This document shows positions 8,742 to 40,195 of a stretch of 64,000 nt of DNA, piece by piece (the first letter of the stretch is position 1; each line of letters opens with the position of its first letter). This DNA is from an uncultured Alphaproteobacteria bacterium (GTDB taxonomy: Bacteria > Pseudomonadota > Alphaproteobacteria > RS24): the NCBI GenBank assembly GCA_938091085.1, contig CALKOC010000008.1:1-64000 (forward strand). Direction: 5' to 3'. The notes beneath the pieces are model-generated. The model was given only the letters and a program-made list of their open reading frames with translations, had not been told where the DNA came from and made no database searches. A program made the position numbers and the translations under genes.

Positions 8742-10460
8742 CTAATTTCCAGCAGGTTCGGGCTTAAGTAAGGCCCTTCCCCACATTGTACCATAAAAAA
8801 TTCGGCCTTTTTCATCAATGGTAGGGCCAGAGAATTCTGAATTAAACTTCTGCCCGCCGATAATATAATGAAATGTTTCATTGCCAGTATCCCAATTCAG
8901 GGCTTCCAGCGTCCATTCCTTATTGCGCGCACCGATAAAATACACCTGCCTTGTACCGAGACTGACCCAAGGTACACCATTAGGGGAGCTGACCTCGGCA
9001 TTCACCCAAGCATTATAAAGTTTTCGAGTCTCTGGGTCCCATTGAAATTTTTGTACACCATAAGGTTGAATATCTGGATTACCGCCAAGCGGCCCAATGA
9101 ACAAACCATTCACACCACCATCTTTCGGCATGAATGATGGCACATTTCTCGGCTGGTTATTAACCACAAGAACACCATACCCTGCGACAATTACAGTTTG
9201 TTCAGTCTGAATTTTTTTAAGATTTAGTGGCCCCATCGTTACCGGTGCTAGACCGGCAATGCGGCGTGAAGGGGCGCCCGGTAATTTTTCCCAGTCCTCG
9301 GGAATTGCATCGCGCCACATTAGCGTGATATTCATAAGATCATCACCATCAGTCAATGCAATCAATCGATCTTCATCGCCAAATCCCATAAGGGCTGGTG
9401 TCGCACCGGACCCCCCGCCCTTGCTACTGCGATATTCCGCGACCCATGCGCCGTCTTTTTCATCCTTAGAGAAATCTGCACCAGTCCAGATAACTTTATG
9501 CATATGATTGCGAGACACGACGTAAATGCCGCCCTCGTCATCAAGCGCAATAGAGTTTCTAACCCAACCATAACCGACCCCCAATGACTCGGTGTTTTCT
9601 TCATCTGCATATGTCAGTTGAATGATACGATGCTGCGTCAAATCAGAAGAAATGGCGACCAGATATCCGTTTTCCGTCGGGTAAACAATCCAGCCATCAT
9701 AGGTCATATTCATACCCACTGTTGGACCAGCAGCGTTTTCCGGCAGTCTGAAAATAGCTTTTTCAACAATTTCAGAGCCTGCGTCACCTTCTACAGCATC
9801 ACCGTATGCACGGATTGAACCATCTTTATTGGCAATATAAATCCAGCCGTTTTTCCCAACGACACAATAAACGCCAGAAATATCCATTAACGGACTGACT
9901 GCTTTCATTGCCGTCGGCAAATTCCAGACACTATTATCCTTGTCTAGACTTGCCGTAATTTTCTCTGCCCAAGCCTCATTATATTTTTCGAATTTGTCAC
10001 TCGGCATATGCGCCAAGATTTCATAAGTCTCACTATCCAACTTATAGATACCATTAACGCCATTGGCCCAAATAACACGCCTTCCATCGGGGTATAGGCT
10101 GGATGTATAAGCACCAAAATAACCTGGCCCCAAAAATTGATAGACAATTTCCTCTGGCTTTAATCTTCGCGTCACATCCATCGGACCTTTAATCGCAGTG
10201 GCATCCTGTTGAGAAGGATCACCATGCGGTAAAGCATTTACGCCATCAGCAAGTTCGGTATTTTTCGGTGCCAGGAGCATACCCACATCTGAACCGCGAA
10301 GAGCCTCAGGCAGATCAGGTGCTAAGGACAATGCTGGCCATTGCTTTCCGGGGACTGGCGTTTTGCCAGGCGGCATTAAAATTTTAACTGTAATTGCCAA
10401 CCCAGCAATTAGTAACAAAAGGCCTGCAAAGGCCGTAAGAATGATTTTTTTAAATGACAT
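8742..10460 (-). CDS. membrane-anchored beta-propeller-like protein of unknown function
   Basis: N-terminal TM helix (ILTAFAGLLLLIAGLAITV); repeated GWIYIANKDGSI / DGWIVYPTENGYLVAIS blade-like motifs. Confidence 0.5.
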   Translation of the reverse strand: MSFKKIILTAFAGLLLLIAGLAITVKILMPPGKTPVPGKQWPALSLAPDLPEALRGSDVGMLLAPKNTELADGVNALPHGDPSQQDATAIKGPMDVTRRLKPEEIVYQFLGPGYFGAYTSSLYPDGRRVIWANGVNGIYKLDSETYEILAHMPSDKFEKYNEAWAEKITASLDKDNSVWNLPTAMKAVSPLMDISGVYCVVGKNGWIYIANKDGSIRAYGDAVEGDAGSEIVEKAIFRLPENAAGPTVGMNMTYDGWIVYPTENGYLVAISSDLTQHRIIQLTYADEENTESLGVGYGWVRNSIALDDEGGIYVVSRNHMHKVIWTGADFSKDEKDGAWVAEYRSSKGGGSGATPALMGFGDEDRLIALTDGDDLMNITLMWRDAIPEDWEKLPGAPSRRIAGLAPVTMGPLNLKKIQTEQTVIVAGYGVLVVNNQPRNVPSFMPKDGGVNGLFIGPLGGNPDIQPYGVQKFQWDPETRKLYNAWVNAEVSSPNGVPWVSLGTRQVYFIGARNKEWTLEALNWDTGNETFHYIIGGQKFNSEFSGPTIDEKGRIFYGTMWGRALLKPEPAGN

Positions 10461-10471
10461 GAGTTTTTCTC

Positions 10472-10918
10472 TTATTCTTGTGCTTGAAAATCTGCTGGCA
10501 GGTTATGGAAATAACTACACTCTTCATTACGATGGCGAATACGCCAACCTTTATCGGTGCGCACAAATTCATCGACATACCAAGCACCTACAAAAAAGAC
10601 ATGGGGTTGATTTTCCCGTTCAACTATCATTGGGTTAAATAAAATTGTACGGGTCTTGGCTTCATCACCATTAAAATTGATAAGCGGCACACCAATCATG
10701 TGCTGGCCACCATTAAATTGCTGTAAAGCCCTGTCCAGATATTCTTTAGCTTCCGGCAAAGTACATTTCAGGCCACCGGTGGCGGTGTAATCTATAATCG
10801 CATCTTCAGTGAAAAAGTTATCCAAAGCCTCCCAATCTCTATTATCAATCGCTTCACAATAGAGTGCGAGAATGTTTTGAATCTCCATTCTGTCCGATAG
10901 TTCTTGATGACTGATCAT
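10472..10918 (-). CDS. SnoaL-like domain protein
   Basis: IQNILALYCEAIDNRDWEALDNFFTEDAIIDYTATGG; typical SnoaL_4 motif. Confidence 0.75.
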   Translation of the reverse strand: MISHQELSDRMEIQNILALYCEAIDNRDWEALDNFFTEDAIIDYTATGGLKCTLPEAKEYLDRALQQFNGGQHMIGVPLINFNGDEAKTRTILFNPMIVERENQPHVFFVGAWYVDEFVRTDKGWRIRHRNEECSYFHNLPADFQAQE

Positions 10919-10961: not shown

Positions 10962-12119
10962 CTAGCCTTCTCCCAGATAGTTTTGGCGATATACCGCAAA
11001 TTTTTCTTTAATCATGTCTTCTGAAAGACCAAAATCAGAAATGTCGTATTTGTGCGGCGCCCGGTCCTCTCTTTTATTAGCTTCAATCCACTGCCCCATA
11101 TCCTCAATGACATCCGGGGTAACATCTATACCTGCCGCCTCTAAAACACGCTGTCCTTGCCCAACAGGATCTTTCAACAATTCGGGATATTTTACATCCA
11201 CGAATCTGTTCTCTGGAGACTTTGAACGAACCGACATAAAAGAATCCGTCCATTGGCTTAATCTTTCAAACCAATATTCCCCAACCATTGCATGAGTAAT
11301 ATCTTCTGACCCCATGCGATAGAGTGTGGATTCCATACTACAATAAGACGGCACAGTTGAAACCGGATCGCGGTGGGTCATAACAATTTTCGCGTCTGGA
11401 AAAATCTTCATCGCCGTATCCAGCGCCATCAAATGACCCGGTGTTTTAAGCACCCACTTTTTGCCCTGACGCGATGGGTCCTGCCACATAAAAGCCTGAT
11501 AGATTTCTCTCAAGTCTTTGTATGCCTGCTCACTATCTTGTGTTCCGAGCCAAGCGGCATAACTCGGCACATAATATGATGCCTCCAGCATACTGCTTGA
11601 AAAAAGCTGACCGAGAATAATGACTTCCTCGTCTGGCTGATCGATGCTCATCGGGTGAATGGACATAATCTCAGGAATTTTCTCTACCATATAGGCCAGT
11701 ATGCCTTTAGCCGCTTCACGACGCTGGCTCGAGTCACCTTGTGTCTCTCCAGGGAAAGGGGCATAGTTTTGTGTCTCATACCATTTAACACCTGTCATGC
11801 CTTTGGCTGAAGACAACATGCGATGCATCATGGTGCTACCTGTTCGCGGCAGACCAACAACGATTGCACTTACATCTACGGGCAGTTCTTTTATCTCAGG
11901 ATTTTGCTTTACCAATTCGATATGGCGCAATCGATTAACCATGGCATTGATAACCATGCCTTGGGCGCCACCGAGACCTTCTTCATTGAGTCGCGCATCA
12001 TCGTTAATCGATTCAATGAATTTATCCATATGACCGAAAAACCATGTATCACCAAAATCATCCAGACCGGCGGTTTGTCGGGCGGCATCAAGAAGCACAC
12101 CCCTTTCGGGCATGCTCAT
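10962..12119 (-). CDS. sulfotransferase family protein
   Basis: AIVVGLPRTGSTMMHRML (5'-phosphosulfate-binding-loop-like) and KIVMTHRDPVSTVPS (3'-phosphate-binding-like) motifs. Confidence 0.85.
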   Translation of the reverse strand: MSMPERGVLLDAARQTAGLDDFGDTWFFGHMDKFIESINDDARLNEEGLGGAQGMVINAMVNRLRHIELVKQNPEIKELPVDVSAIVVGLPRTGSTMMHRMLSSAKGMTGVKWYETQNYAPFPGETQGDSSQRREAAKGILAYMVEKIPEIMSIHPMSIDQPDEEVIILGQLFSSSMLEASYYVPSYAAWLGTQDSEQAYKDLREIYQAFMWQDPSRQGKKWVLKTPGHLMALDTAMKIFPDAKIVMTHRDPVSTVPSYCSMESTLYRMGSEDITHAMVGEYWFERLSQWTDSFMSVRSKSPENRFVDVKYPELLKDPVGQGQRVLEAAGIDVTPDVIEDMGQWIEANKREDRAPHKYDISDFGLSEDMIKEKFAVYRQNYLGEG

Positions 12120-12886
12120 ATACCGTAACCTCCCGATACAGAAATCTGCTGACCAGTTACATAAGCTGCACGATTGGATGCAAGAAACACTGCAGCATGA
12201 CCAATCTCCTCAGGCTGACCCCATCTTTTAAGCGCCAGATTCTTATGAACTTCCGTGACCCATGTTTCGTCAAAATGCCCTTTCTTGGTCAGTTCGAGAA
12301 ACATGCCTGCTTCGATAACGCCAACTAGAACACTATTTGCACGAATTTGATTACGCCCTTCTTCACGCGCAATACCTTGAATGAGCGACTCGTTCGCCGC
12401 CTTCGGTGAAACAGACAAAACGTCTTCATCAGGAAACTTCCAGTCACCCGCAGAACCGAGATGCACCAGCGACCCACCCCCATTTTCGCGCATATGCAAA
12501 ATGCTTGCCTGCGCGGCAGCAAAGAAACCATTAACCTCAGTATTAATTGCCCGCTTCCATTGCTCAGTTGTAACATCAGCAATCCTTACCTGATCAACAA
12601 GTGGTCCCGCCCCCCATACAAGTGTGTGGACACGACCATGCGTTTCAGCCGCTTCGGCAAGCGCTTTCGCGGCGGCACCATCCTCGGTTACATCACAATG
12701 ATGAAGTGAAACTTTGCGCCCTAAGGCTTCAGCTTGTTCAGCAATGCCTTTTGCAACGTCTTCTTTTGAGCGCCAAATAAGAGCCAAGTCAGCCCCTGCT
12801 TTTGCGAATTCCATTGCAACATGTTGACCAATACCTCCAGTCGCACCAAAAATTAAAACCGCTCCTTGTGAAAACATTTCCTGCAT
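12116..12886 (-). CDS. SDR family oxidoreductase
   Basis: GATGGIGQHVA cofactor motif; C-terminal YVTGQQISVSGGYGI. Confidence 0.85.
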   Translation of the reverse strand: MQEMFSQGAVLIFGATGGIGQHVAMEFAKAGADLALIWRSKEDVAKGIAEQAEALGRKVSLHHCDVTEDGAAAKALAEAAETHGRVHTLVWGAGPLVDQVRIADVTTEQWKRAINTEVNGFFAAAQASILHMRENGGGSLVHLGSAGDWKFPDEDVLSVSPKAANESLIQGIAREEGRNQIRANSVLVGVIEAGMFLELTKKGHFDETWVTEVHKNLALKRWGQPEEIGHAAVFLASNRAAYVTGQQISVSGGYGI

Positions 12887-13041
12887 ATCCACTCCCCTCA
12901 CTTAATGAAAGCTCCAGTGCTTTCGCCGTTCTTTAACAAATTGATAAACTAAAAATCTTGTGCAACAGTAACTTCATAAAATTTTGTCGCAAGTTGAATT
13001 TCATAAAATTTCTATCGAAAAAAAGTTTAGTTGGAGGTATC

Positions 13042-13821
13042 ATGCTTTTAAAAGATAAAGTTGTAATCATTAATGGGGTCGGCCCGGGCATGGGACAGTC
13101 CATGGCAAAACTGGCAGCACGCGAAGGTGCTAAGGTTGGTATGGGCGCTCGCAATCAAGAGTTTTTAGACTCTGTCGCTGCAGAAATAAAAGAGAGTGGC
13201 GGCGAAGTTGTTGCTGTATCAACCGATATCTCACAAGAAGACCAATGCCAAAACCTCGCCAATAAAGTTGTCGAAGCTTTTGGCAGAATCGATGGATTAG
13301 TGAACTCCGCTTATCTTCATGGTGAATGGGCAACAACTGATGTTGCAGACACCTCAAGCTGGTCAGCCCTTTATGAAGTGAACTGCCTTGGTGCTCTGCG
13401 TATGGCGCAAGCCTGCCTCCCTTCAATGAAAGAGCAAGGCGGCGGGGCGATTGTGAATGTTTCAACAATGGCAACAGTCAATCCATTTCCCGGAGAAGCT
13501 GCCTATGCAGCAAGCAAGGGCGCGATGCTCGCAATGACACGCCACATGGCAAAAGATTTTGGACAATTCGGTATCCGCGTGAATGCCACCCGCATGGGTT
13601 GGATTGGCGGTAAGCCGGTTTATGATTATATCGATCGACAGGTAGAGGCTGGCTTTGACAGAGATGCGGTTGTCGGTGAAATCACTCAGCGTATCCCTCT
13701 CGGCATTATTCCGCCGGAAGAAGATTGCGCTTTGGCGGTTCTCTATTTTATCTCAGATTATGCACGCGTTGTTTCCGGAGGCACTCTGGATGTCAATGGC
13801 GGTCAATATATGGCGCCATAA
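13042..13821 (+). CDS. SDR family oxidoreductase
   Basis: INGVGPGMGQSMAKLA, YAASKGAM catalytic YxxxK, SGGTLDVNGGQYMAP; ATG preceded by GGAGG. Confidence 0.88.
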   Translation: MLLKDKVVIINGVGPGMGQSMAKLAAREGAKVGMGARNQEFLDSVAAEIKESGGEVVAVSTDISQEDQCQNLANKVVEAFGRIDGLVNSAYLHGEWATTDVADTSSWSALYEVNCLGALRMAQACLPSMKEQGGGAIVNVSTMATVNPFPGEAAYAASKGAMLAMTRHMAKDFGQFGIRVNATRMGWIGGKPVYDYIDRQVEAGFDRDAVVGEITQRIPLGIIPPEEDCALAVLYFISDYARVVSGGTLDVNGGQYMAP

Positions 13822-13824
13822 TCC

Positions 13825-14889
13825 ATGGCAGCTCAATCACCTGCGGATGTCTGGAAGGACTTTTGTCATCAACTGGAACAAGCCGGTTCGGATGTACTTA
13901 ATTGGGAGGCTTCACCAATGGAGCAGGCAGAGGGGTTAAGATACCTCTCCCGCCTGTTACGCATTAGCCTTGATATGAATCTTGAAAATGCTGATCCGGC
14001 GTTTCCCTATTTTTATCAAGCCTCCCACGAGACAGCTAAAATCGGCGCTGATAATCCTGATAATATTTACTTAAACGCAACCATTAGCGGACATCATAGC
14101 TACCGCGTTTACGGCAATCGTGGCAGCGCACCGGTTTTCAGCTTTGGCAGTAAAGCCAACCGCTATGCCGTTGACGGCACCATGGCATCCACCGGAGAAC
14201 TTGATGTGCGCGATATGCATGTCGAACCCGATGGAAGCTTCGAAGTGATTGTCAGTAAAGACAAACAAGAAGGCAACTGGCTCCCTCTTGCCGAAGATAG
14301 TTCAATGTTGCTTGTCAGACAGACATTCCTAGATCGCAATTCAGAGGAGCCAGCTAAGGTTCGCATTGAAACCATAGACGGGCCAGCCACACCGCCTTTG
14401 GCCGAAACACAAAATATTGCAGCTGCGTTGACGCGCAGCACAGCTTTTGTGCAGGGAACAGCAAAACTCTTTATCAACTGGGCTGAAACATTCCGGAGTA
14501 ACAATCTCAACACGCTTGATACAGTTGACCAGACAATGTTTTTCAAGGCCGGCGGCGATGCGATGATTTATTATCTCCATGGCTACTGGGATATTCCATC
14601 TGGTAAGGCGTTAAAAATCAAAACATCAATCCCAGAATGCGAGGGCTGGAATTTTCAGCTTAACAATATCTGGATGGAGTCTCTTGATTATCGATATCAC
14701 GACATTCACGTTAACAACGCTTCGGCAAAACTTGACGATGATGGCGGGGTAACGATTATTGTCGGCGAACGCGACCCCGGCTTTGGCAACTGGCTCGATA
14801 CGGCTGGCCACACAAGAGGCACAATGTTGCTCCGCTGGACAGGCGCTAATGAACATCCCGTTCCGACCTGTGAGGTAATAGATTTATGA
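13825..14889 (+). CDS. DUF1214-like protein of unknown function
   Basis: GSFEVIVSKDKQEGNWLPL...LLVRQTFLDR and GFGNWLDTAGHTRGTMLLRW, shared with ORF 42676-44124. Confidence 0.55.
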   Translation: MAAQSPADVWKDFCHQLEQAGSDVLNWEASPMEQAEGLRYLSRLLRISLDMNLENADPAFPYFYQASHETAKIGADNPDNIYLNATISGHHSYRVYGNRGSAPVFSFGSKANRYAVDGTMASTGELDVRDMHVEPDGSFEVIVSKDKQEGNWLPLAEDSSMLLVRQTFLDRNSEEPAKVRIETIDGPATPPLAETQNIAAALTRSTAFVQGTAKLFINWAETFRSNNLNTLDTVDQTMFFKAGGDAMIYYLHGYWDIPSGKALKIKTSIPECEGWNFQLNNIWMESLDYRYHDIHVNNASAKLDDDGGVTIIVGERDPGFGNWLDTAGHTRGTMLLRWTGANEHPVPTCEVIDL

Positions 14890-15356
14890 CTGAAACATTA
14901 GAAACACGACTTGAAGCTCTAGAGGCAGAAAGCGCAATTCGTAAGCTCAAATACATATATCTAAATGCATGTGACAGCAAAGATGTAGAGACGATTAAAG
15001 CTTGCTTCACCGAAGATGCCGAGTTGGATTATCCGCCTATCGGAAAATTCGGGCTTGACGGTCTTGTTGATATTTTCACGCAGATGGCCGCCACCACGCC
15101 AATAACAGATGTGCATCAGGCACATAATGGCGTGATAAATATTGACGGCGATACGGCGACTGGATTTTGGAATCTTGGTTTCGCAACTTACGATCCAAGA
15201 GATAAATCTTTCCGTCTACTATCGAGTTTCTATCACGACCGCTACCGTAAAACAGAAGCAGGTTGGAAGATAAGCTATTCACGTTCTGAGCCACGGGCAA
15301 TCGTGGATGGCAGTCTCGCAGAAGACAGCATAAAAGCGGAGTGGCTCGCTGAATAA
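14886..15356 (+). CDS. SnoaL-like domain protein
   Basis: [41 protein letters not shown] overlap with the upstream gene. Confidence 0.75.
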
Positions 15357-17348: not shown

Positions 17349-18905
17349 CTATTCGTATTTGATGCGTCCTTTTTCGCCGTAACGACGTTGAAGTACGATT
17401 GACTCTAGTGTCCCGAAACCTTCATGAGGTGCTTCCTCAATTTTTTCTGCCGGAATAATAACATCGGCATAGTCTTTTGGAGCCCGCCACCCAGGATGCG
17501 GGTTGATTTTGACATAACTGCCTCCAATCGGATGCATACTGCGCCACTTGTTGATTTTCTTATTCAGCTTTTTCACAACCGCCGGATAATCATCTGTGAG
17601 ATCATTTTTCTCATAGGGATCGGCATCGAGATCAAATAGCTGATTGTCAAATTCAGTCGAGGTCATCTTATGGTCTATATTTTGAACCAGCTTCCATTTG
17701 CCATCAATCACGCCAAGCTGGAACCTGTTATAGACTGGAATATTGGAGGCAAAATAAAGCGCGCCCTCCCGCTTTGAAACTTTTTCGCCTGTTATCGTTG
17801 ACCAACGATTAACCCCATCAATTTCTTTCTCTGTGCCATTCTCAACACCCGCCGCATGGGTCAGTGTTGGCAGCATATCCATCACCGAAACAATCTCGTC
17901 AACCTCACTACCGGCTGCGAGTTTTTCCGGCCAGCGCATAACTGCCGTTACACGAATACCACCTTCATACACTTCAAGCTTGCCACCGCGATAAGGGCCA
18001 TTATCCGAACCGTAATTTTCAAAACCGCCATTATCACTGAAGAAAAGCACAATCGTGTTATCTGCAACGCCCTCTTCATCCAGTGCAGTCAGAACTTTGC
18101 CAATCGCCTGATCCATCGAGTCGACCATTGCCGCATAGGTTTTACGGGTACTGCCCGGCAAGTCCAGACGTAAGGGGTATTTATCCTTAAGTTCCTCGGG
18201 CGCTTCCATTGGGGAATGCGGCGCAAGGAATGGGATATAGAGCATGAAAGGCTTTGTTTTATCTCTTAGATCAGTGATGAAACGGGCAGCCTGTTCTCCA
18301 TGAACATCCGTCGCATATTCGCCATTATGGTCGACAGGCTTTCCATTTTCTTGGAAGTCATGCCCCTTAGCAATCTGATGATCAAAATAGCTAACCTGTG
18401 TATGCATATGACCATAGAAATGATCAAAGCCACGGGCGTTAGGTGTGTGCTGTTCAATCGTATGACCGAGATGCCACTTGCCAACCATCGCCGTGTTATA
18501 ACCGGCTTCCTGAAAACTTTGTGGCATGAAGTGTTCATCAAGAGATACGCCACCATTTTCCCATGGCATGAGAACTGAATAAGCAACACCAAGCTTCAGG
18601 GGGTCACGGCCAGTCATGAGCGCGGCGCGTGTGGGCGAACAAAACGGCGTGGCATAAAAGCGGTTTAGCTTCACGCCTTCATTGGCGAGACGATCAATAT
18701 GCGGGGTTTCAATATCACTGCCGTGATAGCCAACATCTGACCAACCCAAATCATCTGCTAATATAATGATAATGTTTGGTCGTTGCTCTGCTGATGCATC
18801 ATCTCCGGCTTGAGCCATTGCGGTGGTTACGTTAGCGACTAAAAAAACAGCACAGCAATAGCTTGTGACGCTTAAACGAAAAACCTTCTTAATTATATCA
18901 TTCAT
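17349..18905 (-). CDS. arylsulfatase (formylglycine-dependent sulfatase)
   Basis: NIIIILADDLGWSDVGYHGS and CSPTRAALMTGRDP (CxPxR sulfatase signature); N-terminal signal peptide. Confidence 0.92.
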   Translation of the reverse strand: MNDIIKKVFRLSVTSYCCAVFLVANVTTAMAQAGDDASAEQRPNIIIILADDLGWSDVGYHGSDIETPHIDRLANEGVKLNRFYATPFCSPTRAALMTGRDPLKLGVAYSVLMPWENGGVSLDEHFMPQSFQEAGYNTAMVGKWHLGHTIEQHTPNARGFDHFYGHMHTQVSYFDHQIAKGHDFQENGKPVDHNGEYATDVHGEQAARFITDLRDKTKPFMLYIPFLAPHSPMEAPEELKDKYPLRLDLPGSTRKTYAAMVDSMDQAIGKVLTALDEEGVADNTIVLFFSDNGGFENYGSDNGPYRGGKLEVYEGGIRVTAVMRWPEKLAAGSEVDEIVSVMDMLPTLTHAAGVENGTEKEIDGVNRWSTITGEKVSKREGALYFASNIPVYNRFQLGVIDGKWKLVQNIDHKMTSTEFDNQLFDLDADPYEKNDLTDDYPAVVKKLNKKINKWRSMHPIGGSYVKINPHPGWRAPKDYADVIIPAEKIEEAPHEGFGTLESIVLQRRYGEKGRIKYE

Positions 18906-18952
18906 TGAAATACCCCCCCCACTCATCTCATTGGATTCTTTATAACTTAATG

Positions 18953-18967: not shown

Positions 18968-19055
18968 AATTTCTACGTTGAGTTATAAACAATACCAGTT
19001 AGATAATGAAATCAAGTTTTGTCTAGATAGTTACGAGAAACGAAGTGAGGGTGTC

Positions 19056-19883
19056 ATGAAAAACTTTAATAATAAGGTTGCAGTCATAACTGGCGCAGGT
19101 GGCGGCATAGGTGGTGCGCTAGCAAAGGCACTTGCCCGTCGTGGATGCCATCTGGCACTGGTTGATTATAACCCTGATATGCTTGAGAAAACACTGACGA
19201 CGCTGACTGAAACAAACGTCAAACTATCCAGCCATATTGCCGACGTCACAGACAAAAAACGAATGGCAGCTTTGCCGGATGAAATTGTCGCAGAACATGG
19301 ACGTGTAGATTTATTGATTAATAATGCTGGCATCACGCTGCAAAAAAGTTTTGATACACACAGTATCGAAGACTGGGAACGTATTGTGAATTTGAATTTT
19401 TGGGGTGTGCTTTATGGTTGTAAATTTTTCAAACCTTTACTTGAAAAGTCTACAGACGCACATGTCGTCAACATGTCGAGCATGACGGGGATGCTTGGTT
19501 TGCCAGCTCAATCCTCTTATTGCGCGACCAAGGCCGCTGTTAAGGGACTAACTGAGTCTCTATGGGCCGAATGGGGTGCCGCAGGAATTGGTGTAACTTC
19601 GGTTCACCCCGGGGCCATTAAAACAGATATGATGCAAGCGACCCTCAAGGACTCCGATGATTTGGCAGCGGCACAGAAGAACATGGATATGGTTGCCAAA
19701 ATCGGCATGGCGCCAGATGCAGCTGCAGAAAAAATTCTTCGTGCTGTTCAGAAGAAAAAGATGAAAGTCTTAGTTGGTAAAGACGCTGTCATTATGGATG
19801 CTATGAAAAGATTTACACCCGGGCTAATACATGGACTGTTTGCAAAAGTAGCAAGAAAGCAATTGGCCGCAGCGAGAAATTAA
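19056..19883 (+). CDS. SDR family oxidoreductase
   Basis: VAVITGAGGGIGGALA, LINNAGI, SSYCATKAAVKG. Confidence 0.9.
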   Translation: MKNFNNKVAVITGAGGGIGGALAKALARRGCHLALVDYNPDMLEKTLTTLTETNVKLSSHIADVTDKKRMAALPDEIVAEHGRVDLLINNAGITLQKSFDTHSIEDWERIVNLNFWGVLYGCKFFKPLLEKSTDAHVVNMSSMTGMLGLPAQSSYCATKAAVKGLTESLWAEWGAAGIGVTSVHPGAIKTDMMQATLKDSDDLAAAQKNMDMVAKIGMAPDAAAEKILRAVQKKKMKVLVGKDAVIMDAMKRFTPGLIHGLFAKVARKQLAAARN

Positions 19884-19976: not shown

Positions 19977-20009
19977 GTGGATGCATGAAGGACAGATTTG
20001 AGGACAGAT

Positions 20010-20501
20010 ATGAGTACAGCAGAAAACCCAAATATAGACTTTAACCCAGACGCCCTTGTAACATCCATCAAGGTTGAGATAGACGCGCCCGCCTCTCTGG
20101 TATGGGACATCCTGATTGATATGCCTAAATATGGAGAGTGGAATCCGTTCTGTATTGAATGCGACTCCACATTGGAAATGGGTGCACCGGTCAATATGAA
20201 GTTAAAGAGTTATATCACGCCTGACGAGGTGTTTGATAATTGCGAATTTATCTGTGCTTTTGAACCTGAGAAAATGATTTCCTGGGAATTGCCTTATTCT
20301 GATGAATGGCCCTACCCCGCGCGACGCGACCAGATTATTGAAAGTCTTGGCCCTGAAAAATGCAGCTATTATTCTACCGATGCTTTTCTTGGCGATAACG
20401 GCATTCACGTGATGCGCTTTGCCGGACCATGGGTCAAAATAGCTTTTGATGACACTGCTCATGCTTTAAAGGCACGCGCAGAGGCCTTATACAACAAGTA
20501 G
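20010..20501 (+). CDS. SRPBCC / START-like domain protein
   Basis: VEIDAPASLVWDILIDMPKYGEWNPFCIECDS. Confidence 0.8.
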   Translation: MSTAENPNIDFNPDALVTSIKVEIDAPASLVWDILIDMPKYGEWNPFCIECDSTLEMGAPVNMKLKSYITPDEVFDNCEFICAFEPEKMISWELPYSDEWPYPARRDQIIESLGPEKCSYYSTDAFLGDNGIHVMRFAGPWVKIAFDDTAHALKARAEALYNK

Positions 20502-20535
20502 CGGCAACGCTTTATAAATATATACGGAGGGACTA

Positions 20536-20961
20536 ATGCCTGAAGATATGAACGAAGCAGTCAGTGATATTCTTGGAAGCAAAGGGGATGGCCTCGCTGA
20601 TGATATCATGATTGCTTCGGTAGAAAACTACGTCAAACATTTTAACAATGGTGATTATGAGGGGGTTGCTAATCTTTATGCCGAGACCGCAACTGTCGAA
20701 GATCCAATTGGTACGCCACTTAAAAATGGCAAATCAGAGATAAGAGAATTTTATAAAATGTCCACCCAACTCGGCGCACAACTTGCGCTTAACGGGCCGG
20801 TTCGGACTGCTGCCAATGCTGCTGCATTTGCCTTTAGCGTAACCACCGAGTCTCCAAATGGTACTATTCAAGTTGATGTGATTGATACGTTTAAATTTGA
20901 TGCGGACGGAAAAGTAATTGAAATGTGTGCCTATTGGGGGCAATCAAACGTCAAAATGTAA
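20536..20961 (+). CDS. ksi: steroid delta-5-3-ketosteroid isomerase-like protein
   Basis: VENYVKHFNNGDYEGVANLYAETATVEDPIGTPLKNGKSEIREFYKMS...AANAAAFAFSVTTE...VIDTFKFDADGKV closely parallels Comamonas KSI; Tyr14/Asp38/Asp99 equivalents present. Confidence 0.8.
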   Translation: MPEDMNEAVSDILGSKGDGLADDIMIASVENYVKHFNNGDYEGVANLYAETATVEDPIGTPLKNGKSEIREFYKMSTQLGAQLALNGPVRTAANAAAFAFSVTTESPNGTIQVDVIDTFKFDADGKVIEMCAYWGQSNVKM

Positions 20962-22444: not shown

Positions 22445-24868
22445 ATGTCGGGAGTTCTAGAGGGTCTTAAAGTTCTTGATTTAAGTTGGGGGGTCGCAGG
22501 TCCTATGACGGGAATGTTACTGTGTGACCATGGTGCGGATGTTACACGTATTGAACGTCCTGAAGGCGACCCTTTTGAAGGCTTGCTTGGTTATAAAGTC
22601 TGGCATCGTGGTAAAAAAAATGCGGTTTTAAACCTCAAAGACGATGCTGACTTAGACATATTTTACAAGCTGGCTGCGGATGCCGATATTGTTATTGAAA
22701 GCTTTAGACCTGGCGTCACCACACGCCTTAAAATTGATTATGCAACCCTTGCCGCCACCAATCCTAAATTAATCTACTGCTCAATTACCGGTTATGGTGA
22801 CGACACAGAAGATAAAGACAAACCAGGTTATGACGGCCTCGTTGCCGCCCGTGTCGGTCTGCAATATGAACAACGCGGATGGCCTGAAGGCAGTGTGTAT
22901 CACATTAAAGGTATGCCGGATGTTTTTGAGGATTTGGAAATCGACAATGACTGGGTGCAAGGGCCTGATCGTGAAGGACCGTTACAGGTATCTTCACCTT
23001 GGCCAAGTCTTGGGGCGTTTTTCTCGGCAACGACGGGTATTTCAGCTGCTCTGTTCGCTCGTGAGCAAACAGGCAATGGTCAGCAGGTTAAAACATCACT
23101 CCTGCAGGGTGCCATGGCATGTATGAGCGGTGTCTGGCAACGTATGGACGAACCAGATGCGGAAGGCTTTAACACTTGGATTATGTGTAGCAAAAGCCCT
23201 AAAGGACATTTTAAAACCTCTGATGGTCGCTGGATTCATAACTGGGTACCAAACCCGCGCTTTATTCTTGAGTCCTCTAAAGGGGATAAGCTGGACGCCA
23301 ATCCTGATTTGACAGTTCAAAATGACCCTGACCGCTTTGGTATCGGACCAGAAGAACTTCTTGTGATGTCGCATTATCATCCAATCCTTGCCGATGCGAT
23401 GAGCAAATTCCCTTGTGATGAATGGGTGGAAGCTGCAGCAACTGCTGGTGTGACCATGCAAGAATGTCGTTCAATTGAAGACTCGTTGACTGACCCGCTT
23501 TTGATTGATGATGGCTGTGTGACAACTGTTGATGACCCTGAACTTGGGCCGATCAACCAGGTTGGCATCACCTACCGCTTAGAAAACAGCCCCGGAAAAG
23601 TTAAAGGCCCGACGCGTGCTACAGGCAGCGATACGGATGCAGTGAAAGATTACGCCGCCTCCCTAGCCTCACCTCAGGTCATAGAGAAAAATATAGTCAA
23701 TGGCGACCCACCGTTAAAAGGTATCCGTGTGCTTGACCTAGGTCTGGCAATTGCAGGCCCGTTTGGTTGTCAGTTGCTGGCGGATATGGGCGCAGAAGTC
23801 ATTAAAATTAATACGCTTTGGGATAGCTTCTGGCATCGCACACATATTGCCTATATGGCTAATCGCGGTAAACGCTCCATTGCCCTGATGCTGAAGCATC
23901 CAAAAGGGATGGAAGTTCTGAAAAAACTCATCGCCAGCTGTGATGTGGTGCAACATAATATGCGCTATGCCGCCGTAGAGAGACTTGGTCTCGATTACGA
24001 TACGCTAAAAAAAGAGTTTCCTGAGCTGATTTATTGCCATACCCGCGGTTTTGAAAAAGGCCCTCGTATGGGACTCCCGGGTAATGATCAGACCGGCGCT
24101 TGCTTGTCTGGCATTCAGTATTCAGATGGAGCGGTTCATGCTGGGGGACATCCACTATGGTCACTTACCTCGCTCGGCGATACTGGTAATGGTTTCTTGT
24201 CGGCTATCGCTATTTGCCAGGCGCTTTATGAGCGCAAAAAAACCGGCAAAGGTCAGTTTGTAGATACCTCGATTATTAATGCGGCTCTTTTGAACACCAG
24301 CTATGCAGTTGCAAAACCAGATGGCAGTGCGATTGACAGACCCCTTCTGGATCTAAATCAGACGGGCTTTAGTGTTTACTACCGCATTTATAAAACCACA
24401 GATGAATGGATTATGGTCACTGCAATCAATGATGCACACAAATCCGCTCTCGATGGAATAATTGGTGCAGGTGCCGATGCGGCGACTGCTGAAAAAGTGT
24501 TTGCAGGTAAATCATCCGATGAATGGTTGAAAATTCTTGCTGATAGCGGTGTTCCTGCTGAATTGTCAGATAGAAAATACTCTCTCGACTTTTTCGATAA
24601 TGCAGACTTCAAAAAGCGTGGCTGGACAGCTGAATATAATGATCGTTTTGTTGGCAAGCTTGAGCAGATTGGTTTGACTTATGACCTCTCTGATACGCCG
24701 GCACGTATTCCGAGCAGCCCTCTCATCGTAGGTGATAATACAGAGTCCTTACTGCACGAACTTGGTTATTCCGAGGAAGAAATTGACGTAATGGTCAATG
24801 AGACAGCTGTTCTGTGTGATCCACCTCGTAAAGGACAATCAGAACTCGAAAGTCCATGGAATATATAA
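22445..24868 (+). CDS. fused two-domain family III CoA-transferase (CaiB/BaiF)
   Basis: Two CoA-transferase domains: LKVLDLSWGVAGPMTGMLLCDHGADVTRIE and IRVLDLGLAIAGPFGCQLLADMGAEVIKI; GGAGGGG SD. Confidence 0.9.
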   Translation: MSGVLEGLKVLDLSWGVAGPMTGMLLCDHGADVTRIERPEGDPFEGLLGYKVWHRGKKNAVLNLKDDADLDIFYKLAADADIVIESFRPGVTTRLKIDYATLAATNPKLIYCSITGYGDDTEDKDKPGYDGLVAARVGLQYEQRGWPEGSVYHIKGMPDVFEDLEIDNDWVQGPDREGPLQVSSPWPSLGAFFSATTGISAALFAREQTGNGQQVKTSLLQGAMACMSGVWQRMDEPDAEGFNTWIMCSKSPKGHFKTSDGRWIHNWVPNPRFILESSKGDKLDANPDLTVQNDPDRFGIGPEELLVMSHYHPILADAMSKFPCDEWVEAAATAGVTMQECRSIEDSLTDPLLIDDGCVTTVDDPELGPINQVGITYRLENSPGKVKGPTRATGSDTDAVKDYAASLASPQVIEKNIVNGDPPLKGIRVLDLGLAIAGPFGCQLLADMGAEVIKINTLWDSFWHRTHIAYMANRGKRSIALMLKHPKGMEVLKKLIASCDVVQHNMRYAAVERLGLDYDTLKKEFPELIYCHTRGFEKGPRMGLPGNDQTGACLSGIQYSDGAVHAGGHPLWSLTSLGDTGNGFLSAIAICQALYERKKTGKGQFVDTSIINAALLNTSYAVAKPDGSAIDRPLLDLNQTGFSVYYRIYKTTDEWIMVTAINDAHKSALDGIIGAGADAATAEKVFAGKSSDEWLKILADSGVPAELSDRKYSLDFFDNADFKKRGWTAEYNDRFVGKLEQIGLTYDLSDTPARIPSSPLIVGDNTESLLHELGYSEEEIDVMVNETAVLCDPPRKGQSELESPWNI

Positions 24869-24892: not shown

Positions 24893-25288
24893 ATGCGCCC
24901 TGATCCAATACTAAAAATTGATACCGCCTTCTTCTGGGAGGCTTGCGAACGTGGCGAGTTTGTTGCCCAAAAATGTGGAGCTTGCGATATTTTATGGCAC
25001 CCGCCCCGCCCGATGTGCCCCAAATGTCATAGTACTGAAAAAGAAGTCCAGCAGTTATCCGGTCTGGGAACAGTCGTTAGCTGGTGTGTTGCGGTTAGAC
25101 CGCAAGCTTTTGGCTTTGACGAGTCACCCATTGCCGCCCTTATCGAACTTGATGAAGGTCTGCGCTTCGTTTCAAATATTGAAGGGGTCGCTGAAGATGA
25201 TATGCAACCTGGCATTCGGGTTCAGGTAGCTTTTGCCGATACATCAGGTGGTAAAAAAGTCCCCGTCTTTAAACCCGTTTCAGAATAA
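24893..25288 (+). CDS. Zn-ribbon/OB-fold (DUF35) protein, ChsH2-like partner
   Basis: KCGACDILWHPPRPMCPKCHS Zn-ribbon then OB-fold GTVVSWCVAVRPQ. Confidence 0.88.
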   Translation: MRPDPILKIDTAFFWEACERGEFVAQKCGACDILWHPPRPMCPKCHSTEKEVQQLSGLGTVVSWCVAVRPQAFGFDESPIAALIELDEGLRFVSNIEGVAEDDMQPGIRVQVAFADTSGGKKVPVFKPVSE

Positions 25289-25342: not shown

Positions 25343-26500
25343 ATGTCAAAAACCAACAACCAAGCAGCTATTGTAGGAATTGGTCAGACCGAATTTTCAA
25401 AGGATTCAGGTCGTTCAGAACAACAACTCGCCGCCGAAGCTGTCATTGCCGCCTGTAAAGACGCCGGCATTAACCCTTCTGAAATTGATGGATGCATTAC
25501 CTACACCATCGACAACTCTGATGAAGTTGACCTTCTTCGTTCTGTCGGGTGCAAGGAGCTAAACTATACAGTTCGTCTACCTCAAGGTGGCGCTGCAAAC
25601 GCCGCGACACTCTATCATGCTAAAAACGCAGTTGAGTCCGGCGTTTGTGATGTTGTCGTTATATGGCGCGCCATGAATGAAAGGTCGCAATATCGCTTCG
25701 GTCAGCCGACAGTTTCGATTAGTCCTGATGCCAATGGCTCGACATTTATCGAATGGTGCTTTCCTTTTGGCGCCCAAACACCTGCATCATGGGAGGCACT
25801 TTCTTGCGGCCAGTATCTTAGTAAATATGGCGTGACCTCGGAAGATTTGGGTAATATCGCCGTGCTGATGCGCAAGCATGCCGCGACAAATCCGAATGCA
25901 TGGTTCTATAAACAACCAATTACACTTGAGGAGCATCAAAACAGCCGCTGGATTGTTAAGCCGTGGCTTCGTCTACTAGATTGCTGTCAGGAGTCGGATG
26001 GGGGCGTTGCTATTATTGTAGCGCGCATGGATAAAGCCAAAGATCTGAAACAGACGCCTGCCCGCTTGCTGGCAGCACAATATTCATTTCTGTTCAACCA
26101 TGAGATTATCTCCGATTTTTATGAAGGTGATCTAACAGGCTTACCCTTCAGTGAACGGGTAACAGAGAAGCTTATTGAAGATGCTGGTATTGCCCCAAAG
26201 GATACAGATGTTGCCATGATATATGACAACTTCACTCCACAAGTTTTACGCCAATTGGAAGGCTTTGGTTATTGCGGGCCGGGTGAAGCCAAGGATTATA
26301 TTGCTGATGGTAATATGGAACTTGACGGCAAAACACCTCTCAGCCCTAACGGGGGTCTCATTGGTGAAGGGTATATTCACGGCATGAATAATATTACTGA
26401 AGCCGTGCGCCAGATTCGCGGAACCGCCGCAAATCAGGTAGAAAATGTCGAAACAGCTTTTGTCGCTTCGGGTGTAGCCGGAGCAATCTTAGGTAAATAG
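25343..26500 (+). CDS. SCP2-type thiolase-like protein (Ltp/Ltp2-like, candidate aldolase)
   Basis: AAIVGIGQTEFSKDSG, DVVVIWRAMNERSQYRFGQ, GGLIGEGYIHGMNNITEAVRQIRG; CxSG nucleophile region reads GGAAN. Confidence 0.85.
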   Translation: MSKTNNQAAIVGIGQTEFSKDSGRSEQQLAAEAVIAACKDAGINPSEIDGCITYTIDNSDEVDLLRSVGCKELNYTVRLPQGGAANAATLYHAKNAVESGVCDVVVIWRAMNERSQYRFGQPTVSISPDANGSTFIEWCFPFGAQTPASWEALSCGQYLSKYGVTSEDLGNIAVLMRKHAATNPNAWFYKQPITLEEHQNSRWIVKPWLRLLDCCQESDGGVAIIVARMDKAKDLKQTPARLLAAQYSFLFNHEIISDFYEGDLTGLPFSERVTEKLIEDAGIAPKDTDVAMIYDNFTPQVLRQLEGFGYCGPGEAKDYIADGNMELDGKTPLSPNGGLIGEGYIHGMNNITEAVRQIRGTAANQVENVETAFVASGVAGAILGK

Positions 26501-33025: not shown

Positions 33026-33085
33026 ATGTAATTTTTTCAAAGACCTTTAGAGGTTATTTATTTAAGACGAAGTGGAGAAGTGAAT

Positions 33086-34474
33086 ATGTCAGCAGCGGAA
33101 GAAATTAAAACATATAAGAATATCCCCGATGTCGATGGGATACCATTTCTGGGTAATACCCTGGAGATGGCAAAAGATCCGGCAGCGTTATTCCTGAGAG
33201 CCTATAGAGACTATGGCCCGGTCTATCGTGTGAATGTTTTTGGTCGAAAACAGATTGTGATTGCAGGCAGAGAAGCAGCGCTGTTTATGTCCACCAAAAA
33301 TGGACGTGAAAGTCTAAGGTCGCGTGAATTTTGGGAGCCAATGAGAGAGTTCTATGGTGCTTCTAAAATGCTTACCCGTGAGGATGGTGAACTTCATCAA
33401 AGACTTCGGGGCGTGATGCGGGACGGCTTCTCTAGAGAGGCTGTACGCGGCAGATATCATGAACTTTCCGCTACGATTGACGACTCTATTTCAAATAAAT
33501 GGCAAAGCGGAAAAGATGTCCCTGTCGTTGAAGCTTTCCAGTATATGATTGTGCAAGAACTCGGCGAAATCCTAACAGGGTCAGCGCCACTAGAATATGT
33601 TCGCGATATACGGGTTAACATTCTTTATCTTTTGAATGTTCTAGTTACGCAAGTCAGACCAAAGTTCTTCTTGGGGCTACCTGAATTTAAGAAAGCCAAT
33701 AAGCGCGTTGAAGAGCTTAGCCGCGATATGATTATCGAATTCAAAGAGCATGCTGAAAACGGCACATTACCTAACAACCTTCTGGGTGACATAATGCGTG
33801 CGCATATTGAGCATCCTGATCTTGTGCCTGAAACAGATTTGTCTCTGCTTCTGACCGGCCCTTACGTTGCTGGACTGGATACAGTGGCCAATACGCTTGC
33901 GGCTTGTGTTTATGGCATCTTGAGAACACCTGGAGTGTTAGAGCGTGTGCAAAAAGAAGCAGATGCCCTGATGTCCAAGAAAACCGTCAAGGAAGACGAT
34001 ATACGTGAATTGGTTGTGATTGGTGGGTGTCTTCGCGAAGCTATGCGGATGTGGCCGATTGCTGTTGCCCAGATGAGAACTGCAACTAAAGACTTCGAAT
34101 TTGAAGGTTATCTCATTCCTGAAAATGAGAAGCTTTATATTGGCACGAGCGTATCTCATTTTATGCATGAATATTTTCCGGATCCTGGTCAATTTGATCC
34201 AGATAGATATTTGGATGAAAATGCTCAGCATATGCAACCCGGTGTGTATTCACCATTCGGCAGAGGCCCACATACATGTCTCGGGCAGAATCTGGCAGAG
34301 GTTCTAATGGGCATGACTATTGCGCGTCTGTTCCACCGTCTTGATATGACATTGGAGAGTGAGGACTACATTCTCAAAACCAAATCATTCCCGACACCGG
34401 GTCCAGCAATGGACTTCAAGGTCAAAATAAAAGGCGAAAGAATGCCGGCTGATAAGCTGATACCTGAAGCCTAG
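33086..34474 (+). CDS. cytochrome P450
   Basis: I-helix GPYVAGLDTVANT, ExxR LREAMRMWP, heme loop FGRGPHTCLGQ. Confidence 0.95.
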   Translation: MSAAEEIKTYKNIPDVDGIPFLGNTLEMAKDPAALFLRAYRDYGPVYRVNVFGRKQIVIAGREAALFMSTKNGRESLRSREFWEPMREFYGASKMLTREDGELHQRLRGVMRDGFSREAVRGRYHELSATIDDSISNKWQSGKDVPVVEAFQYMIVQELGEILTGSAPLEYVRDIRVNILYLLNVLVTQVRPKFFLGLPEFKKANKRVEELSRDMIIEFKEHAENGTLPNNLLGDIMRAHIEHPDLVPETDLSLLLTGPYVAGLDTVANTLAACVYGILRTPGVLERVQKEADALMSKKTVKEDDIRELVVIGGCLREAMRMWPIAVAQMRTATKDFEFEGYLIPENEKLYIGTSVSHFMHEYFPDPGQFDPDRYLDENAQHMQPGVYSPFGRGPHTCLGQNLAEVLMGMTIARLFHRLDMTLESEDYILKTKSFPTPGPAMDFKVKIKGERMPADKLIPEA

Positions 34475-34544: not shown

Positions 34545-35309
34545 TTAGAACTGGTCGGGTCTGACAACAGCATCTGTTCCACCATCTACATAAAGCACAC
34601 TGCCATGCATGAAAGAGAACGCATCGCTGACCATCATCACGATGATATTTGCAATTTCATCAACATTTGCCGTTCTGCTTAGTGGCACAGGAATATTTTC
34701 CAAAGCACCCTTTAAATCGGGGTTATCACGCACACCCTGAAGCATAGGGGTTTCTGTCATGCCTGGAGCAATCGCATTAAGACGAACACCTGCAGTCCCC
34801 CATTCATGCGCCCGTCGGCGAACGGCGCGCGCAACTGCATGTTTTGAGAGCCCATAAGTTGCGGCAGAAGGCATATCACCTACAACATCAATTGCAGCCT
34901 GTTCATCATGAGCAAGCAAAGCTTTTACCAGCTCATTTTCAGGGTCAACACCCATTTGAGCAGAATTGGAACTTAGTGCCAAAGCTGCAGCACCAGCGCG
35001 TCCTTTCATAGCCGGGAAGAAACCGTCTAGGAGCTCTACAGTGCCGAAATAATTTACAATCATCACCATCTTACCATCGGCCAGATGCCCGCCCATACCA
35101 GCAGCAGTAATCAGGATATCAATTTCCGAGCCCGTTTTTTCTAATGTGTCAGCAATTGCCTTCTGGCGACCTTCTGATGTTGATAAATCAGCAATGATAT
35201 CTGCATCACGCAAATCAATACTGATAATCTCATGCCCTGAGTCAGAGAGTTTTTTAGCAACCTCCCGACCGATACCAGATGCTGATCCTGTTATGACAAT
35301 TTTAGACAT
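34545..35309 (-). CDS. SDR, 3alpha-hydroxysteroid dehydrogenase/carbonyl reductase (HsdA)-like
   Basis: IDLRDADIIADLSTSEGRQKAIADTLEKTG and C-terminal DGGTDAVVRPDQF resemble C. testosteroni 3alpha-HSD; YGLSK. Confidence 0.8.
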   Translation of the reverse strand: MSKIVITGSASGIGREVAKKLSDSGHEIISIDLRDADIIADLSTSEGRQKAIADTLEKTGSEIDILITAAGMGGHLADGKMVMIVNYFGTVELLDGFFPAMKGRAGAAALALSSNSAQMGVDPENELVKALLAHDEQAAIDVVGDMPSAATYGLSKHAVARAVRRRAHEWGTAGVRLNAIAPGMTETPMLQGVRDNPDLKGALENIPVPLSRTANVDEIANIIVMMVSDAFSFMHGSVLYVDGGTDAVVRPDQF

Positions 35310-35599
35310 TTTCATTTCCCCCCCATATTTCTGATTAACTTAAAAACTAACATAAAACAGCCTTTATGTAAGTTAGTAACTCATAGGGGATATTCAGGTA
35401 TTAGCTACAACCCTAGGTTTAGCAGGCTTCTTGAAAGATTTAGGAATTATTAAAATGAATTACACATCTTGAAATAAATAACTTGTGAATAATAATAAAT
35501 TAAGACTCATAAATGCTTTATTTGACATTATATGCATAAAATACTACGAACTGCGTAATATTTATTTTCGATTCTTGTTAAAGGACATTTATAGTCACT

Positions 35600-38188: not shown

Positions 38189-40195
38189 ATGGATAATTTG
38201 GGTTTGGTGATTAAGGAAGCCAGCCAAGCAGTTAAGGCACATAATTTCACGCATGCTCTTGACTTGCTGACCCAAAATCTAAATGACGACCCCGATCATA
38301 TTGATAGCCTCTATCTGGCAGCCGTATGTTCACGCTACATGCAGTCATATGACCGCGCGGAAGACTATCTTATTCATCTTCTGAAACTCGCCCCAGATAT
38401 GGGGCGGGTTTATCAGGAACTCGGTCACCTTAAGCGTGCGACTGGTGACATTGAAACTGCCATTGATCATTATCGACAAGCTTGCGAACGTAACCCAGGT
38501 TTGCTTGCCTCATGGCAGGTTCTATTCGAATTCTACAAACACCAAAACAACAGCAATGCTGCCGCGCATGTGAAGGAAAAAATAGACAGGCTCAATACCC
38601 TGCCGCCTACCCTTTTGCATGTCACCCAAATTTTGCATGAAGGGCGACTGGCTGAGGCTGAAGAACTTTGTCGGCAGTACCTTCAACAAAATCCCAAAAA
38701 TACCGCGGGTATGAGTCTGTTAGCAGATATTGCATCTCGGCTTGGCTATCTGGGGGACGCAGAATTTCTGCTTGAAAGCGCCGTCGCATTTAGTCCTGAA
38801 GACAATGAATTGCGGCTTAACTACATGTTGCTACTTCGTAAAAAACAGGATTTTGTAGCATCTATCGAACAGGCAAAAATTCTGTGTGAACGTTTCCCTG
38901 ATAACCTCTCATATCGCGCTCAAATGGCGATTGAGATGATGCAGAACGGGGATTATGAGGAAGCCATTAACATCTTTGATAGTGTCCTCGCCATTGCCCC
39001 AAAAGATCCGAACACATTGACCTCCAAAGCTCACGCGCTCAAGACCTTTGGTAATAATGAAGCCGCAATCCAAAATTATCAGGCGGCATATGAGTCAAAA
39101 CCCGATCATGGGGAGGCTTATTTTTCTCTGGCTAATTTAAAAACCTATACTTTTACTTCGCAAGAAATTGCCCTAATGGAAGCGCAAATAGACCGTCCGG
39201 AATTACCGCAAAAAGACCGCGCCTATTTTCATTTCGCAATGGCGCATGCCTATGAAAAAGAGAAACGCTATGAGGACAGTATTCATCACCTTAAGCAGGG
39301 GAATTTAATTAAGCGCCAACAAAGCAGTTATTCAAGCAAAAGAATGACGCAGGAGATGGATGCTCATATAAATATTTGCACGACAGCATTCTTTGAGACA
39401 CATAACACAGGCGGATGCGATGCGCCCGATCCGATATTTATCGTCGGTCTGCCTCGCGCTGGCTCAACATTAATTGAACAAATTTTGGCTTCTCACTCAC
39501 AAGTGGATGGCACCCTCGAACTACCCAACATACTCACTCTTGCACAAAGTCTGCGCGGACAAGATCGCCTCTCAGGTATCGGAAATTATCCTGAAGTGTT
39601 GAAAACCCTGTCACCGGAAAAGCGTCTGGAAATGGGGGAAGCCTATATCAATGATACCCGCCTGCATCGAAGCGGAGCGCCGCACTTTACCGATAAAATG
39701 CCGAATAACTTTCGTCATATCGGGCTGATACACCTTATTCTACCTAATGCAAAAATAATTGATGCACGCCGCGCACCCCTTGATTGTTGCTTTAGTGCGT
39801 TTAAACAGTTGTTTGCTCAAGGCCAAGAATTTAGCTACGGACTCGAAGAACTCGGTGCCTATTACCGAGATTATATTCGCCTCATGGAACATTGGGATAA
39901 TGTGTTACCGGGCAAAGTTTTGCGCGTACAACATGAAGATGTTATTAATGACCTAGAAGGTCAAGTTCATCGCATGCTTGAGCATCTAAACCTACCTTTT
40001 GAAGAGCAATGTATCTCTTTCCATGAGAATCGTCGGTCTGTTAGGACTGCGAGTTCAGAACAGGTCAGGAAACCTATTAATACCGACGGGGTTGGTAAAT
40101 GGAAATCTTATGCTAAAGATTTACAACCACTGGCACATGCTTTGGGTGATGATTTGATATCTCCAGACGATCTGTCCTTAATTTTATCCGAGTGA
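38189..40195 (+). CDS. TPR-repeat sulfotransferase
   Basis: N-terminal TPR repeats; IFIVGLPRAGSTLIEQILASHSQVDGTLE sulfotransferase motif. Confidence 0.9.
   Translation: MDNLGLVIKEASQAVKAHNFTHALDLLTQNLNDDPDHIDSLYLAAVCSRYMQSYDRAEDYLIHLLKLAPDMGRVYQELGHLKRATGDIETAIDHYRQACERNPGLLASWQVLFEFYKHQNNSNAAAHVKEKIDRLNTLPPTLLHVTQILHEGRLAEAEELCRQYLQQNPKNTAGMSLLADIASRLGYLGDAEFLLESAVAFSPEDNELRLNYMLLLRKKQDFVASIEQAKILCERFPDNLSYRAQMAIEMMQNGDYEEAINIFDSVLAIAPKDPNTLTSKAHALKTFGNNEAAIQNYQAAYESKPDHGEAYFSLANLKTYTFTSQEIALMEAQIDRPELPQKDRAYFHFAMAHAYEKEKRYEDSIHHLKQGNLIKRQQSSYSSKRMTQEMDAHINICTTAFFETHNTGGCDAPDPIFIVGLPRAGSTLIEQILASHSQVDGTLELPNILTLAQSLRGQDRLSGIGNYPEVLKTLSPEKRLEMGEAYINDTRLHRSGAPHFTDKMPNNFRHIGLIHLILPNAKIIDARRAPLDCCFSAFKQLFAQGQEFSYGLEELGAYYRDYIRLMEHWDNVLPGKVLRVQHEDVINDLEGQVHRMLEHLNLPFEEQCISFHENRRSVRTASSEQVRKPINTDGVGKWKSYAKDLQPLAHALGDDLISPDDLSLILSE

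Follow-up and report, generated by a model that had tools for sequence, protein, structure and literature searches.

The window analysed here, a stretch of 64,000 nucleotides, derives from the marine PS1 clade and from the genus of strain IMCC14465. It carries a ketosteroid isomerase (KSI) gene in an open reading frame that the sequence-only reading had placed correctly in both position and strand (141 aa, ATG start, zero internal stops). A strong ribosome-binding site lies ahead of the gene, and the reverse strand of the same interval is interrupted by stops. Orthologues in three sister genomes (95, 85, and 85% identity) are full length, including the N-terminal extension, and dN/dS is ∼0.1, indicating purifying selection; the reading frame is therefore a real gene under constraint. 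The best named matches come from PS1 clade MED-G50 (95%) and Alpha proteobacterium IMCC14465 (85%). The KSI gene and the neighboring features discussed below are collected in Table 1.

Table 1. Features of the window that are considered in the text, with the codons of the aligned active-site residues
Feature	Position	Strand	Remarks
SDR1	12116..12901	-	60-67% identity to SDRs of KSI loci in several other genomes; 74% on a Hellea MAG fragment
SDR2	12958..13821	+	up to 72% identical to SDRs of sphingomonad KSI loci
DUF1214 protein	13825..14889	+	kept near KSI in Sphingopyxis and Sphingomonas
SnoaL_4 protein	14886..15356	+	also retained in Sphingopyxis and Sphingomonas KSI loci; lacks Asp38/Asp99 and is not a KSI
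SDR3, short-chain dehydrogenase	18978..19883	+	partner proposed by the sequence-only reading; synteny with KSI essentially genus-only
SRPBCC-fold protein	19998..20501	+	34 nt upstream of the KSI gene
GGAGGG, Shine-Dalgarno-like	20526..20531	+	just 5' of the KSI start codon
Ketosteroid isomerase gene	20536..20961	+	141 aa; intact ORF, PDB match, and model
Tyr32 codon	20629..20631	+	Tyr14 of Comamonas KSI, Tyr16 of P. putida KSI; oxyanion hole
Tyr48 codon	20677..20679	+	Tyr32 of P. putida KSI, Phe30 of Comamonas KSI
Asp56 codon	20701..20703	+	Asp38/Asp40; general base
Tyr73 codon	20752..20754	+	Tyr55/Tyr57; active-site tyrosine network
Asp117 codon	20884..20886	+	Asp99/Asp103; oxyanion hole
ChsH2-like zinc-ribbon/OB-fold protein	24893..25288	+	just before the Ltp2-like aldolase
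Ltp2-like lipid-transfer protein/thiolase	25343..26500	+	best match 6ok1, E 2e-121
SDR4	34545..35315	-	45% identical to the SDR directly upstream of Comamonas testosteroni KSI; 14 kb from the window KSI

In a phmmer comparison with PDB sequences, residues 24 to 139 of the window protein aligned with residues 6 to 121 of the Comamonas (Pseudomonas) testosteroni KSI (TI or tKSI; PDB 8cho and 1qjg) at 42% identity. The best chain was 1ocv, the F116W mutant of the Comamonas enzyme (E 9e-25), and 8cho followed with an E value of 2e-23; by sequence comparison, this match is far beyond chance. Since the alignment is gap-free with a constant offset of 18, Tyr14, Asp38, and Asp99 of the Comamonas enzyme correspond to Tyr32, Asp56, and Asp117, and Tyr55, Phe82, Phe101, and Met112 are matched as well. 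The motifs from which the sequence-only reading had picked out these three residues, VENY(32)VKHFN, ATVED(56)PIG, and VID(117)TFKF, are all present in the translation together with AANAAAFAF, and its assignment holds in the alignments with the Comamonas and P. putida enzymes and in the conservation across 84 sequences. The “catalytic triad” of that reading stands as three intact residues but is really a general base, Asp56, plus an oxyanion-hole pair, Tyr32 and Asp117, and not a classical triad.

The P. putida biotype B KSI (pKSI; PDB 1opy and 1oh0), aligned in its wild-type form with Tyr16, is 34% identical and is matched at Tyr16, Asp40, Asp103, Tyr57, Tyr32, and Trp120. This comparison shows two one-residue insertions in pKSI and a difference, Phe rather than Met, at TI position 101. 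At positions 30 and 116, both Phe in the Comamonas enzyme, the window protein has Tyr (Tyr48) and Trp (Trp134) and so is P. putida-like rather than Comamonas-like there. Tyr14, Asp38, Asp99, Tyr55, Phe82, and Met112 (Comamonas numbering) are invariant in 84/84 sequences (the window KSI, 80 relatives from genome contigs, and three from plasmids), an invariance that partly reflects how the relatives were selected, as ATVE and the Asp99 motif were among the patterns searched with, whereas neither Asp38 nor Tyr14 was.

The AlphaFold2 model, computed from an alignment of 48 relatives, has a pLDDT of 91.8, with low confidence only in the first ∼20 residues, which form the N-terminal extension that the PS1 protein has relative to Comamonas KSI. 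The model superposes on solved KSIs with their cone-shaped alpha+beta fold. All 50 of the 50 best Foldseek matches in the PDB are KSIs, and the best Comamonas structures match with an rmsd of 0.8 to 0.9 Å and a target-normalized TM score of ∼0.95. Neither the sequence alignment nor the superposition of the predicted structure placed other residues at positions 14, 38, and 99. In a tree of 87 rows and 119 columns, in which many forks are weak or unresolved, the window KSI falls inside a group with both characterized KSIs, TI and pKSI (support 92/93), and its nearest neighbor is a Hellea MAG sequence. A second, distant KSI-like protein (∼31 to 33% identical) is encoded beside an SDR at G000:C36:2450-2779 (L002, L013), and a similar one at G004:C78:1357-1710 (L006, L014). 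The distant protein keeps the Tyr14, Asp38, and Asp99 equivalents, has Phe at the Tyr55 position, and sits on a very long branch.

The window also encodes two other SnoaL-type proteins, at 10472-10918 and 14886-15356, both with a Tyr aligned at position 14 and neither with Asp38 or Asp99, in agreement with the earlier view that the product of the KSI gene is much closer to KSI than these neighbors are. The protein at 10472-10918, a SnoaL_4 member with homologues near KSI in ∼17 of 83 loci, weakly resembles the bile acid 7alpha-dehydratase BaiE (E ∼1e-4) and is possibly a steroid dehydratase.

SDR3, the SRPBCC gene, and the KSI gene follow one another on one strand, separated by 114 and 34 nt, and are syntenic in three sister genomes, as is ∼35 kb around the KSI gene within the genus; SDR3 and the SRPBCC gene could be cotranscribed with KSI. 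The sequence-only reading had seen an oxidize-then-isomerize pair here. The upstream position of the SDR and SRPBCC genes, their common strand, and the synteny in the genus speak for such a pair, but among 83 KSI loci compared, few outside the genus have SDR3 close by, and we therefore rejected it as an obligate partner. SRPBCC homologues do occur near KSI in Sphingomonas sp. 67-36 (72%) and Novosphingobium meiothermophilum (62%).

SDR4 and SDR1/SDR2 are better dehydrogenase candidates within the window than SDR3. The Comamonas SDR to which SDR4 is related is 86% identical to a 3α-hydroxysteroid dehydrogenase sequence (3alpha-HSD/carbonyl reductase type). The Sphingopyxis KSI locus has SDR2, DUF1214, and SnoaL_4 neighbors in common with the window, at 64 to 72% identity, and Sphingomonas sp. 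67-36 also shares the SRPBCC protein and SDR1 (67%). The steroid Delta-isomerases of Sphingomonadales (Novosphingobium sp. ES2-1, N. aromaticivorans pNL2, and Sphingopyxis) are themselves 50 to 57% identical to the window KSI.

Downstream of the KSI gene by 4.4 kb, the Ltp2-like protein scores above the NCBIfam “lipid-transfer protein” cutoff and is probably a steroid side-chain aldolase subunit, with the ChsH2-like protein as its probable partner. The protein in 6ok1 is Ltp2, which associates with a ChsH2 OB-fold domain to give the aldolase responsible for cleaving off the side chain of steroids. Between these genes and KSI, at 22445-24868, lies the gene for an 807-aa protein with two tandem CoA-transferase family III domains; of the KSI loci examined, those of PS1 alone have it. 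A cytochrome P450 at 33080-34474, 55% identical to a P450 near KSI in a Nevskiaceae MAG (L047), is a candidate steroid hydroxylase. Sulfated substrates, for instance sulfates of steroids or sterols, are hinted at by four further genes of the window, at 10962-12119, 17349-18926, 38189-40195, and 44587-45360; they encode a sulfatase, two sulfotransferases, one of which is joined to TPR repeats, and a protein with a PAPS-reductase domain. The 572-aa protein encoded at 8742-10460 gave zero Pfam matches at 1e-5; it is kept within the genus and was not found in other KSI loci.

The KSI family member of the window is associated with steroid catabolism through its relatives and through its own genus. 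Its relatives adjoin hsaC, hsaA, hsaD, kshA, or fadD3-like genes, with FadD3-like genes close to the isomerase in 30 of 83 loci and HsaA-like genes in 17 of 83. The PS1 genus encodes KshA, a Δ4(5α)-dehydrogenase, HsaA-D, HsaF, HsaG, and KstD-like and FadD3-like proteins. In Sphingopyxis the KSI gene adjoins hsaC, hsaA, and hsaD, whereas PS1 has these genes in a separate cluster ∼43 kb away. In the near-complete sister genome G001, KSI lies at C1:60289, HsaC, HsaD, HsaA, and FadD3-like genes at ∼103 to 108 kb, an HsaB-like gene at 110 kb, the Δ4(5α)-dehydrogenase homologue at 115 kb, and KshA at 127 kb, so that KSI is ∼43 to 66 kb from hsaC and kshA and not in one operon with them.

HsaC-like proteins were found in 6/6 genomes of the genus and 0/14 controls, with scores of ∼250 to 260 bits that sit below the NCBIfam cutoff of 450. 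KstD-like proteins, also in 6/6, are likewise below cutoff, as are the HsaA, HsaB, and HsaD matches in G001. The aldolase and acylating aldehyde dehydrogenase (HsaF/HsaG) exceed their cutoffs in genomes G000 and G001 but not in every genome of the genus. The genome of the window itself carries HsaC-like (contig C25), KstD-like (C2), and HsaF/HsaG (C59) genes. KshA is present in 5/5 other genomes of the genus, and no orthologue was found in the 90.6%-complete draft to which the window belongs; contig C25 of this draft stops inside the Δ4-dehydrogenase homologue, which in G001 is ∼10 kb from kshA. No KSI ortholog was found in genome G003, although kshA and hsaC are present, and either the pathway may run without KSI or the G003 assembly is incomplete.

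For a call of steroid degradation, Bergstrand et al. 2016 (PMC4810484) set the bar at six of eight key enzymes, with KshA and HsaC included. For the enzyme set given there, G001 has candidates for KstD (KstD-like), KshA, HsaA, HsaC, HsaD, HsaF, and HsaG, several of them below equivalog cutoffs.

Taken together, gene 20536-20961 very probably encodes a Δ5-3-ketosteroid isomerase (EC 5.3.3.1) that would feed steroid ring degradation, and the call of a bona fide KSI is supported at the levels of sequence and predicted structure, by conservation across its relatives, and by the genomic surroundings. Identity to characterized enzymes is 34 to 42%, and KSI-fold proteins can switch reaction while retaining some of these residues, which counts against the call. 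One alternative is a KSI by descent and mechanism whose physiological substrate is something other than a Δ5-3-ketosteroid with an intact A ring, such as a ring-cleaved steroid intermediate or another cyclic terpenoid enone. Relatives in Novosphingobium and Croceicoccus do lie amid acyl-CoA dehydrogenase, MaoC, thiolase, or FadD3 genes of the kind usual for C/D-ring breakdown, and the window also carries CoA-transferases, a P450, and amidohydrolases. However, every residue characteristic of steroid-acting KSIs is retained, Comamonas TI, which acts on Δ5-3-ketosteroids, belongs to the same tree group, and a side-chain aldolase homologue lies within the same window, making this alternative improbable.

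We considered it less probable still, to the point of being very remote, that the protein belongs with the MonB/Lsd19-type epoxide hydrolases and cyclases, which have the KSI fold, and that its substrate is not a steroid. MonBI and MonBII chains also match it (E ∼1e-16), but KSI chains score far higher (90 versus 64 bits), only KSIs appear among the best structure matches, and the full KSI residue set is present; on these sequence scores and Foldseek matches the hydrolase reading was rejected. The Asp/Glu acid pair that replaces the oxyanion hole is absent, with Leu83 near TI position 65, where such hydrolases have their second catalytic acid, and the surroundings are steroid catabolic, with no polyether or polyketide genes seen nearby. 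A generic SnoaL/NTF2-like protein with a superficial resemblance to KSI is hardly credible at all. The best Pfam family is indeed SnoaL_2 (E 6e-13), and in NCBIfam nothing scored above cutoff for KSI, with no steroid-specific equivalog for it or for the window SDRs; SnoaL_2 is nonetheless a broad family, and sequence, structure, and phylogeny all single out KSI. This reading was rejected on the PDB sequence matches and the unanimous Foldseek result.

KSI moves a double bond in steroids and is a well-studied textbook enzyme. By analogy with the characterized KSIs, Asp56 of the window isomerase would move a proton of a 3-oxo-Δ5 steroid from C4 to C6, while Tyr32 and Asp117, backed by Tyr73 and Tyr48, would hydrogen bond to the C3 oxygen and stabilize the dienolate. 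The 3-oxo-Δ4 product would then enter the 9,10-seco pathway through Δ1-dehydrogenation and 9α-hydroxylation, followed by HsaA-D. The Δ5-3-ketone itself would be made by an SDR that oxidizes a 3β-hydroxy-Δ5 steroid, such as a derivative of algal or animal sterols; what the enzyme acts on in nature and which dehydrogenase is its partner, as we infer them, are the least certain elements of this scheme.

Among 28 genomes of the order, the KSI gene occurs in this genus only, and the key genes tested (KSI, KshA, and HsaC) were not found in the other genera. On balance, we favor the view that one genus of PS1, ocean bacterioplankton with genomes of ∼2 Mb or less, is a dedicated steroid/sterol degrader within an order whose other genera lack these genes, with separate regions for the ring-cleavage genes and for KSI, which would share its region with the side-chain aldolase, sulfatase, sulfotransferases, and TonB receptors. 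A search of the accessible literature on PS1 or IMCC14465 with steroids found no report of steroid degradation. The PS1 gene set may already be covered by the unclassified alphaproteobacteria that Bergstrand et al. (PMC4810484) list among the steroid degraders.

As KSI is a textbook enzyme, another member of this known family changes little by itself, and the novelty is modest, lying in a genus-restricted steroid-degradation gene set in oceanic genomes of roughly 2 Mb. The gene is valuable as a marker, which together with KshA and HsaC points to steroid use by an oceanic lineage. The enzyme is ordinary and its host is the interesting part, since steroid use by PS1 bears on who recycles sterols in seawater.
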